A DNA stretch of 64,000 nucleotides from Bradyrhizobium sp. WSM3983 (GTDB lineage Bacteria > Pseudomonadota > Alphaproteobacteria > Rhizobiales > Xanthobacteraceae), in contig NZ_AXAY01000004.1 of NCBI RefSeq assembly GCF_000473045.1, positions 310,001-374,000 on the forward strand. The letters run 5' to 3'. The notes under the pieces were generated by a model. The model worked only from the letters and a program-made list of their open reading frames with translations, did not search any database and was not told the DNA's origin. The position numbers and the translations under genes were made by a program. Shown here piece after piece: positions 44,374 through 46,177 of this stretch (position 1 is the first letter of the stretch; each line of letters opens with the position of its first letter).

Positions 44374-44405
44374 GCGGCCGTCATGCTTGACGGCCGCCTC
44401 TTTTT
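44374..44405 (+). terminator. rho-independent terminator after emrAB
   Basis: GCGGCCGTCA, loop TGCT, TGACGGCCGC: perfect 10-bp GC-rich stem followed by CTC and TTTTT. It separates emrAB from the AAA ATPase gene, whose promoter must therefore lie in the 50 bp that follow; TATAAG at 44431-44436 is the best -10 candidate. Confidence 0.9.
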
Positions 44406-44455: not shown

Positions 44456-46177
44456 ATGAGCGACACTCAGGCCGAAATCGTGCCGGTTCAACTCGTGCTG
44501 CACGACGACGAAGATGTTCCGCGCGAGTTCATCATCGACCTGATGCGCCGTGTCTTTGGCAAGTCGGAGAGCGAGGCAGCCTCGGTCATGGCTAACATCG
44601 GGAAGCACGCGACCGCTGTCTGTGGCCCTTACCCACCATCCGTCGCAGACGCCTTACTGGAATCTGCCCGGCGGCGTATCACCTTCGCCGGCCACTCTCT
44701 CCTGATCACGAGGGAAACGGCGAAGCCCTGCTGCGGACTTTGCGACCAGCCGACAGCGCAATCGGAAGTGCAGTTGATGGACCGCACAGTCTGGCTATGC
44801 GCCGATTGCGTGCTCGCGGCAGCAACCGCATCGCAGCAACTGCCCGCGGAAGAGTTCAACTATGCGTTCGGTGTCCTGGATTGGCATTTCGCCGACATCC
44901 CGCGGAGTCAGCTTGTAACCACGGTCCGCCAATTTCCCGGCCACATGCGAGCGGACGTCCAGGCCGCCATCGACGGACTATTCGCCTCGCCGGTCCGGTT
45001 GCTCGGCCTCGCCGAGGATCGTCGTTACGAAACGCTGTCCATGTCCCGACTGATGCAGACCGATAATTTCGCGGTGACAATCGCACCACTTCAGTACAAC
45101 GACGTTGATATCGGCGAACAGACACCGGCCAAGTGCCTCGACAATGGTCTCTGGCTTTGCGCTTCGTCCGGCCTTCGCTATGCGATGCTTCTGGCCATTC
45201 ATCGGGAATATAGCCGTGAGACCGGCGTGCGGATCGAGATTATGGTGCCGGCCGGGGCGGCGGGAGCGGCACTTGTCCAACAATGCTTCACCGCACTGGA
45301 GGACGCAGTACAGGCCGCGCGCACCTATCGCGGCAAAATCCTCTCGCTCGATGCCGATTCCGACTACCGCGGCCGCTCACGCGGAATCACGGTGCACAGA
45401 CTTCCCTCGATCAGGCGTGACGAGGTGATCCTGCCCGACCAGACGTTGCGACTACTCGATCGCAACGTGTTGAACTTCGTAGGGACACGAGACATGCTGC
45501 GCCGGTTCGGGCAGTCGACCCGCAAGGGAATTTTGCTCTACGGACCGCCCGGCACCGGCAAGACACACACCATTCGCTATCTTGCGACCCATCTGCCGGG
45601 GCATACAACGCTGATCATCACGGCCGAGCAAATCGGCCTGCTCGGCGCCTATATGAACCTTGCCCGCCTCTTGCAGCCCGCCATGGTGGTGATCGAAGAC
45701 GTCGATCTGATCGCACGGCAACGCGAGAGCATGAGCGGCTGCGAGGAACCGCTACTCAACCGGCTCCTCAACGAGATGGACGGCTTGAAGCAGGACGCTG
45801 AGATTCTGTTCGTGCTGACCACCAACCGCCCCCAGCAGCTTGAGAGCGCCCTCGCCGGCCGCCCGGGTCGCATCGATCAGGCGATCGAAGTGCCGCTCCC
45901 CGACGAGACCGGCCGCGGCAAGCTGGTCCGGCTCTACGGCAAGGGATTGCCGCTCGACGACGCGGTCATCACTGAGGCGGCCCGTCGCAGCGCGGGCACG
46001 AGTTGCGCTTTCATCAAGGAATTGATGCGGCGGCTGGCGCAGGCGAGCCTCGCGCGCGATGGCGGCAACTCCGTGACGTCAGCCGATATCGACGAGGCGC
46101 TCGACGACATGCTGTTCTCCGGCGGCCGGCTCAACGCGCGATTGCTCGGCGGCGCACAGGCCATGGCGGCGGGGTAA
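44456..46177 (+). CDS. ClpS-like domain + ClpX-type zinc domain + AAA+ ATPase fusion
   Basis: 573 residues from MSDTQAEIVP with AAGGG 6 nt upstream. Residues ~10-87 look like a ClpS core (VQLVLHDDEDVPREFIIDLMR, then ATAVCG). The N-degron pocket is altered: E. coli Asn34 is His16 and His66 aligns with Gly49. Residues 93-118 carry C-x2-C and C-x2-C in a ClpX-like spacing (CGLC, CADC). An unassigned region (130-340) leads to an AAA module: Walker A GPPGTGKT 363-370, Walker B VVIEDVD 411-417, sensor TTN near 457, Arg fingers in RPGRID. There is no protease domain and the pore loop (IGLLG) lacks the usual aromatic. Possibly a substrate-selecting unfoldase; function is inferred. Confidence 0.82.
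   Translation: MSDTQAEIVPVQLVLHDDEDVPREFIIDLMRRVFGKSESEAASVMANIGKHATAVCGPYPPSVADALLESARRRITFAGHSLLITRETAKPCCGLCDQPTAQSEVQLMDRTVWLCADCVLAAATASQQLPAEEFNYAFGVLDWHFADIPRSQLVTTVRQFPGHMRADVQAAIDGLFASPVRLLGLAEDRRYETLSMSRLMQTDNFAVTIAPLQYNDVDIGEQTPAKCLDNGLWLCASSGLRYAMLLAIHREYSRETGVRIEIMVPAGAAGAALVQQCFTALEDAVQAARTYRGKILSLDADSDYRGRSRGITVHRLPSIRRDEVILPDQTLRLLDRNVLNFVGTRDMLRRFGQSTRKGILLYGPPGTGKTHTIRYLATHLPGHTTLIITAEQIGLLGAYMNLARLLQPAMVVIEDVDLIARQRESMSGCEEPLLNRLLNEMDGLKQDAEILFVLTTNRPQQLESALAGRPGRIDQAIEVPLPDETGRGKLVRLYGKGLPLDDAVITEAARRSAGTSCAFIKELMRRLAQASLARDGGNSVTSADIDEALDDMLFSGGRLNARLLGGAQAMAAG

Follow-up and report, generated by a model that had tools for sequence, protein, structure and literature searches.

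ClpS and the zinc finger of ClpX are regarded as adaptor parts of Clp proteases. A different class of AAA proteins comprises YjoB of B. subtilis (PDB 7w42 and 7w46), which we take to have chaperone function, and mitochondrial Bcs1 (BCS1L). An excerpt of PMC12219900 places Bcs1 in an outlying AAA clade and describes a membrane heptamer, with a beta-sheet middle domain and a wide pore, that moves the folded Rieske protein. Here we describe a gene in a 64,000-nucleotide stretch of the Bradyrhizobium sp. WSM3983 genome (contig NZ_AXAY01000004.1, positions 310,001 to 374,000 of the forward strand; hereafter the window) whose product carries a ClpS domain, a ClpX-type finger and an AAA module on one chain. 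The open frame runs on the + strand from an ATG at 44456 to a TAA at 46175-46177 and encodes 573 residues.

We read this protein as a remodelling chaperone of the Bcs1/YjoB class that chooses its clients through grafted Clp modules, and not as a protease motor, an interpretation that we hold to be about evenly balanced between right and wrong. Our best reading of the wider family is that one of its branches was recruited to nitrogen fixation. Each module is known; among the open-licence papers listed we found no description of ClpS and a ClpX finger combined on a Bcs1/YjoB-type AAA protein. The nearest reports, each available as an excerpt, concern vWA proteins of Bacteroidetes with an inserted L12/ClpS domain (PMC7159879) and the ClpS and BCS1 proteins of phages, which are separate there (PMC7824862); the text of PMC4999443 makes no mention of ATPase, AAA, Clp or chaperone. 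Two modules of this kind on another AAA class without a protease domain suggest that degron readers can be reused to select which clients are remodelled.

Clp recognition modules on a non-Clp ATPase

With residues 1-120 as query, PF02617 covered residues 11-83 at E 5.2e-11 and 42.6 bits, where the Pfam cut-off is 23; the match stayed above the cut-off when the whole protein was searched (E 1.1e-9). Against the PDB the same 120 residues returned ten matches, all of them ClpS (E 5e-7 to 0.021), and nothing else up to E 10; an E. coli-type ClpS chain aligned without gaps (query 12-88 to 29-105). PF02617 was matched in all 39 members scanned (the window protein and 38 relatives), and the AlphaFold2 (AF2) model predicts the order strand-helix-helix-strand-helix-strand in this block, at predicted local distance difference test (pLDDT) values of 81-90. 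A single AAA module follows (PF00004, E 5.3e-21); a Pfam search of the whole protein found no protease domain, and the chain stops after the AAA module. An earlier annotation made from the letters alone (the sequence-only reading) had proposed a gap-free ClpS-like core at the N-terminus, a ClpX-like zinc segment and one AAA module without a protease domain on one chain. Profiles and family alignment agree with that architecture, ClpS having been found within residues 1-90.

Family-level counts below refer to an alignment of 74 proteins, mostly from Bradyrhizobium, made of the window protein and 73 of 80 loci; seven loci were left out as broken or short (L050, L063, L082, L102, L105, L107 and L128). 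The 80 loci are the best of 111 relatives obtained from 126 candidate stretches in a species-genome scan. They were ranked by a ClpS-containing query and are biased to ClpS-bearing copies, for which a genus search on the middle domain served as correction.

The four cysteines of the C-x2-C...C-x2-C segment are all present in 58 of the 74 proteins and all absent from the remaining 16 (13 with gaps at these columns, three with other letters). A profile built from 29 members (the window protein and 28 others) gave ClpX as each of its six best rows against the PDB (E 2.6e-4 to 0.17), and 12 of the 29 matched PF06689, the zinc-binding domain of ClpX, singly (best E 3.6e-8). The window's own segment failed to reach PF06689 and had no good family match (PF08274 at E 0.027); the ClpX finger model, run over the window's genome, found one clear place, elsewhere, and left the fusion gene unmatched to E 10. 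AF2 confidence in this part is low (pLDDT 57-69, and 48 at residues 121-130). The proposed ClpX-like finger thus holds in its cysteine spacing and in the family profile, and falls short for the window segment taken singly; at family level it appears to be a C4 finger of the ClpX type. Unlike that of ClpX, it sits between ClpS and a non-Clp AAA module.

For the ClpS pocket, the ungapped alignment gives each query residue as the E. coli ClpS number minus 17, so that Asn34, Asp35, Thr38, Pro39, His66 and Leu99 correspond to Asp17, Asp18, Val21, Pro22, Gly49 and Leu82 of the window protein. A previously reported change of Asn34 to His was a register slip by one, since Asn34 corresponds to Asp17 and His16 falls at Val33; the change of His66 to Gly had been read correctly for this protein, although the commonest residue there in the family is Glu. 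Asn34, Asp35 and His66, which we take to be the amino-end-binding trio of ClpS, are not fully kept. Position 17 is Asn in 44 and Asp in 25 of the 74 proteins and position 18 is Asp in 71, while position 49 is never His (Glu 48, Leu 8, Ser 6, Asp 5, Thr 2 and five single letters), in line with the earlier claim that the N-degron pocket is altered. Nearby, Thr at position 21 and Leu at position 82 (71/74 each) and Pro at position 22 (66/74) prevail. The Met40 position is variable (Leu 26, Asp 20, others), as is that of Met62 (Thr 21, Ala 21, Ile 16, Met 10). The places of Glu79 and Lys84, presumably the ClpA-docking residues of E. coli ClpS, hold Ser, Pro, Ala or Thr in 65/74 and Leu, Met or Ile in 74/74. 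Ahead of the ClpS core stand 8-12 residues in 69 proteins and 26 in four; E. coli ClpS, according to an excerpt of PMC9663308, docks in the ClpA channel via a longer N-terminal extension. Neither the docking positions nor the long extension is kept in the family.

The fusion accordingly shares with the ClpS adaptor of E. coli and Caulobacter the profile, the predicted fold, the ungapped core and the Asn/Asp34, Asp35, Thr38, Pro39 and Leu99 positions. It differs from the adaptor in being covalently attached to an ATPase, in lacking His66, in the changed Glu79, Lys84, Met40 and Met62 positions and in its short extension. By alignment, the domain seems to retain half of the amino-end site and to have lost the other half together with the ClpA contacts. 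N-degron delivery to ClpA looks already served, because two ordinary ClpS proteins encoded in the same genome retain NDDYTP and His66 (L001 at G000:C13 and L002 at G000:C1). What the fusion's pocket would keep is the acidic amino-end side (Asn/Asp34 and Asp35) and part of the hydrophobic floor (the Val43, Val65 and Leu99 positions). Because Met40 and Met62 vary, His66 is replaced and ClpA docking is lost, the ligand, perhaps an N-terminus or a basic segment, would be bound with a specificity of its own and delivered to the protein's own ring instead of to ClpA. With mostly Glu at His66, the divergent pocket may represent a natural variant of the N-degron code.

Middle domain and AAA motor

The ATPase motifs of the AAA module are intact: eleven catalytic positions (Walker A, Glu414, Asp415, Asp417, Asn457, Arg469 and Arg472) are invariant in 74/74 proteins, and the acidic pair of Walker B reads Glu-Asp, against Asp-Glu in an aligned p97-type chain. 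It is not of the ClpX type, AAA_2 (which we take to be the Pfam model of the ClpX AAA module) being absent among 24 Pfam rows up to E 1. A HMMER alignment to Afg2 shows the family to be 8 residues short in the segment from the second strand to Walker B, the presumable site of pore loop 1.

Searching with the AF2 model of the full chain, Foldseek placed YjoB at ranks 1-3 (E 2.6e-17) and Bcs1 at ranks 4, 5, 8, 10 and 11 (8t14, 9gs2, 9gsn, 8tp1 and 8tby). These matches cover 439-480 columns, against 236-417 for the p97, proteasome and FtsH rows listed. In VIA-align, YjoB chain 7w42_B was matched at Z 20.4, with a root-mean-square deviation (rmsd) of 5.2 over 349 aligned residues. Clp chains are absent among the fold matches listed by the two programs, which is an absence from the listings and no proof. 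YjoB is the best Foldseek match across N-domain and AAA, at 18% identity, and lacks ClpS and zinc modules across the aligned region (model residues 138-554). Bcs1 has the same layout of middle domain and C-terminal AAA, both covered by the match, and carries a transmembrane helix where residues 1-130 of the fusion are filled by ClpS and the finger. The middle domain matched no notable Pfam or NCBIfam family and, modelled alone, reached a pLDDT of 84.2. With moderate confidence, the model points to a Bcs1/YjoB-class layout of middle domain and AAA.

On this layout the protein would be a soluble, ring-forming ATPase with ClpS and, where present, the finger at its N-terminus in place of the Bcs1 membrane helix. 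Pocket and finger would keep a client or an adaptor at the ring entrance; the client might then be handed to a vestibule formed by the middle domain and the AAA ring, and ATP-driven movement of the two would release or remodel it without threading into a peptidase.

Several results weigh against this interpretation. Model confidence is moderate (pLDDT 80.1; predicted template-modelling score, pTM, 0.63), and the whole-chain rmsd to YjoB and Bcs1 in Foldseek is large (8-14 A). First rank in VIA-align belongs to p97 (Z 21.1, 244 aligned). The isolated middle domain found its best fold at Z 7.4, within background, and Bcs1 at Z 5.8 and 5.5; searched by sequence against the PDB it gave nothing below E 0.9. 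The AAA sequence is nearest to FtsH, PAN and Cdc48: FtsH and PAN lead its NCBIfam matches (best 25 of 32), and a search for pore-loop kin placed Afg2/p97 first and not Bcs1 (best 60 of 146). The shortening of the pore-loop stretch is deduced from HMMER gaps, with no structure behind it. In the genus search, six of 15 short-frame loci have no ClpS part, so the ring can do without ClpS there, and across the 80 loci there is no conserved operon partner, most neighbour clusters having been named by eye.

Some of these points would suit a true unfoldase, as the sequence-only reading had named the protein, in which ClpS and the finger pass proteins carrying degrons to the AAA pore for threading, whether or not an external peptidase takes part. 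It would be expected to resemble FtsH, PAN, Cdc48 and p97 as the AAA module does, to have Clp recognition modules on the same chain and to keep Walker motifs and arginine fingers intact. The 8-residue shortening around pore loop 1, the lead of YjoB and Bcs1 in Foldseek and a PF00004-type AAA without a protease domain speak against it, and none of the window gene's nine scanned neighbours is a peptidase (the neighbours of other loci were judged by eye). We consider an unfoldase unlikely, though far from negligible; the label is not sustained by the best folds of the model and the shortened pore-loop stretch, yet the AAA sequence still favours it.

The AAA region also resembles that of the anti-phage ATPase IetA (E 2.4e-19 with the IetA profile, 1.5e-17 with IteA); in an ATPase of that kind the N-terminal modules would sense phage proteins. 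The IetA score (NF042959), at 63.8 bits, lies far below the family cut-off of 510 and is weaker than those of FtsH and PAN. No protease partner stands among the window's neighbours, which are exporter, tannase, permease, patatin and metabolic genes (other loci were viewed by eye only). Residues 1-340 have no relative in 50,697 phage records, and three viral contigs match the AAA part only. An anti-phage role is, in our estimate, highly improbable.

Family history and the nitrogen-fixation branch

Of the 80 records, 66 are titled Bradyrhizobium, and the rest are mostly other Rhizobiales and metagenome bins. A narrow middle-domain profile was positive in 7 of 398 genomes of the phylum, all in the window's genus, and the genus search on the middle domain found it in 128 of 265 genomes, at least eight of these as fragments only. 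Fifteen genus genomes combine a full middle domain with a frame of fewer than 520 residues; the ClpS part is present in nine, in frame or in another frame and mostly as interrupted copies, and absent in six (L038, L158, L159, L172, L173 and L174).

From middle domain and AAA together we built a tree by a quick method with midpoint rooting; a few of its 97 rows are fragments of broken copies. The five plasmid proteins that lack ClpS and satisfied a length filter fall apart from the other 92 rows. Within these 92, deep forks have ClpS with the finger on either side. The finger is absent from several separate places, namely Mesorhizobium, a nif-linked Bradyrhizobium branch, L108 and L122, and both modules are missing in L038/L158/L159, a group adjacent to the window's own.

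Median ratios of non-synonymous to synonymous substitution (dN/dS), from 17 pairs of our own choosing (16 for the middle domain), are 0.12 for ClpS, 0.22 for the finger, 0.10 for the middle domain and 0.08 for AAA. The ClpS part is under purifying selection. This, together with four cysteines that are never partly lost, Cys 56 in 74/74 proteins and Asp 18, Thr 21 and Phe 25 each in 71-73/74, leaves little room for a relic fusion whose ClpS and zinc parts are functionless leftovers; such a relic could account for the loss of the zinc segment in several separate branches and for the short-frame loci in which ClpS is absent or interrupted, and we regard it as very unlikely.

Copies interrupted by a stop or frame change were seen in L050, L063, L082, L102, L105, L107, L163-L165 and L167-L169, and near the 3' end in L068; the gene is thus dispensable in some strains, or the drafts contain errors. 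Some of the loci L163-L174 are probably from the same genomes as named loci. Under the title Frankia sp. RB7, the record of L058 contains a locus typical of Bradyrhizobium; this record is probably mislabelled or mixed. L037 (G075, placed in another genus) scores the same as L038 (G024), possibly through contamination or recent transfer.

Plasmid records matching the protein numbered 690, six of them over at least 80% of its length, and the best 44 rows are all rhizobia. Residues 1-130 matched none of 72,556 plasmid records, which means that this ClpS part is absent from the plasmid cousins. In four of eight plasmid regions inspected, these ClpS-less cousins adjoin nif or fix genes. The one of Paraburkholderia sprentiae sits between nifHDK and nifENX, two Mesorhizobium plasmids (AR10 and AR02) have theirs close to fdxB, and that of Rhizobium binae precedes fixABCX-nifA. 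The other four regions, three from Sinorhizobium and an unannotated one from Rhizobium leguminosarum, contain no nif gene. The P. sprentiae cousin (L129:6947-8354) is annotated as two overlapping frames and is apparently one broken gene. A few kb from the R. binae cousin lies a row of TIR, DUF1273, caspase-family and TIR genes (L133:1929-4298).

ClpS-bearing paralogues without the zinc segment lie within about 2-11 kb of nif genes in seven genomes of Bradyrhizobium, counting six of the 15 loci retrieved and L123, the same locus as L040. Among the zinc-bearing loci scanned, none has nif structural genes. Matches of 36-40% to nifA in L080, L081, L083, L091 and L095 were not counted as nif linkage.

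Sites of the sigma54 type were scored against plain base shuffles (40 per region, 88 + 12 regions), and their statistics are weak. All 12 loci of the branch of L123 (L117, L119, L121, L123, L124, L126, L127, L148, L150, L151, L155 and L156) have such a site at 10/12 positions, and ten of the 12 also carry TGT-N10-ACA some 90 bases upstream; for L117 and L148 the scanned stretch includes little upstream DNA. The upstream sequences of this branch are near-identical and count as one event. Its scanned DNA includes nif genes in three loci (L123, L148 and L150); some of the remaining loci are on short contigs, and L151 is plainly distant from nif. A second nif-linked branch (L145, L146, L147 and L149) reaches 9/12 for sigma54, as did 10-13 of 40 shuffles, and has TGT-N10-ACA in three of its four loci. 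The R. binae plasmid and the two Mesorhizobium plasmids have sigma54-like sites at 11/12. In their form these promoters resemble those under NifA/RpoN that an excerpt of PMC3538637 tabulates for Mesorhizobium loti R7A. In L113 and L115, both from Mesorhizobium and without nif in the scanned DNA, a sigma54-like TGGCACAGATATTGCC lies about 50 bases upstream (10/12).

The window copy scores 9/12 for sigma54, as did 6 of 40 shuffles, and has neither TGT-N10-ACA upstream nor a nif gene in its locus; nifD is on another contig of its genome. The nif linkage belongs to some paralogues and not to the window copy. Across the 265 genus genomes, 94 have both the ATPase and nifD, 34 the ATPase only, 70 nifD only and 67 neither (odds ratio 2.6, p 2e-4, uncorrected for kinship), and the genomes with a second copy have nifD in 16/16 cases.

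These data bear on whether the family is primarily a nif-linked remodeller of which the window copy is a chromosomal paralogue. The plasmid cousins beside nif and fix genes, the seven Bradyrhizobium genomes, the sigma54- and NifA-like sites upstream of nif-linked copies and the occurrence of nifD in every two-copy genome, compared with 94 of 128 carriers, would all be expected of a nitrogen-fixation accessory. Such an accessory would not be expected in the 34 carriers without nifD, in the half of the plasmid regions that lack nif or in the setting of the window copy, without nif gene, upstream activating sequence or good sigma54 site; in the nearest ClpS paralogue set, the L123 branch, nif linkage extends to three of 12 scanned loci, some on short contigs. 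We think it rather improbable for the family as a whole. A Clp-related ATPase is tied to nitrogen fixation in Azotobacter as well, where ClpX2, known here by a paper title only, is reportedly a nif-linked unfoldase connected with NifB and NifEN.

Returning to the Bcs1/YjoB-class remodeller, the most specific form of the proposal is that its members are client-selective remodellers of folded proteins and that one branch, under NifA control, acts in nodules on nitrogenase or on its iron-sulphur assembly proteins by reading an altered N-terminal signal. We offer this form as a speculation that is decidedly more likely to be wrong than right. The nif-linked paralogues could nevertheless show how nitrogenase assembly is policed in legume nodules.

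Genomic setting and coordinates

The window gene is flanked by an HlyD/MFS exporter pair and, on the other strand, a tannase gene. Neighbours are alike within clades and different between them, the window's clade having the exporter pair or a MarR gene upstream and tannase downstream, so this is apparently a lone gene without a fixed partner. One terminator-like hairpin was found upstream of the gene, with 1.3 expected by chance. Coordinates of the features are collected in Table 1.

Table 1. Features of the fusion gene and its upstream flank, in window coordinates
Feature	Position	Strand	Basis
Whole gene: ClpS, C4 zinc finger, middle domain and AAA (573 aa)	44456..46177	+	
ClpS domain, residues 11-88	44486..44719	+	PF02617, PDB ClpS matches, AF2 model
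Asp17-Asp18, at E. coli ClpS Asn34-Asp35	44504..44509	+	Ungapped alignment
Gly49, at E. coli ClpS His66	44600..44602	+	Alignment
Probable ClpX-type C4 zinc finger, residues 90-128 (Cys 93/96/115/118)	44723..44839	+	Family profile
Middle domain, residues 131-314	44846..45397	+	Covered, with AAA, by YjoB and Bcs1 structures
AAA module, residues 315-556	45398..46123	+	PF00004 at 359-481
Walker A GPPGTGKT, residues 363-370	45542..45565	+	Five tested columns invariant, 74/74
Walker B MVVIEDVD, residues 410-417	45683..45706	+	E414, D415 and D417 in 74/74
Terminator-like hairpin and T tract between the upstream MFS gene and the fusion gene	44374..44397	+	Context only

A small HigA-like antitoxin gene, named by eye, lies downstream of the fusion in L079, L096, L098 and L099 only and is not a general feature of the family.

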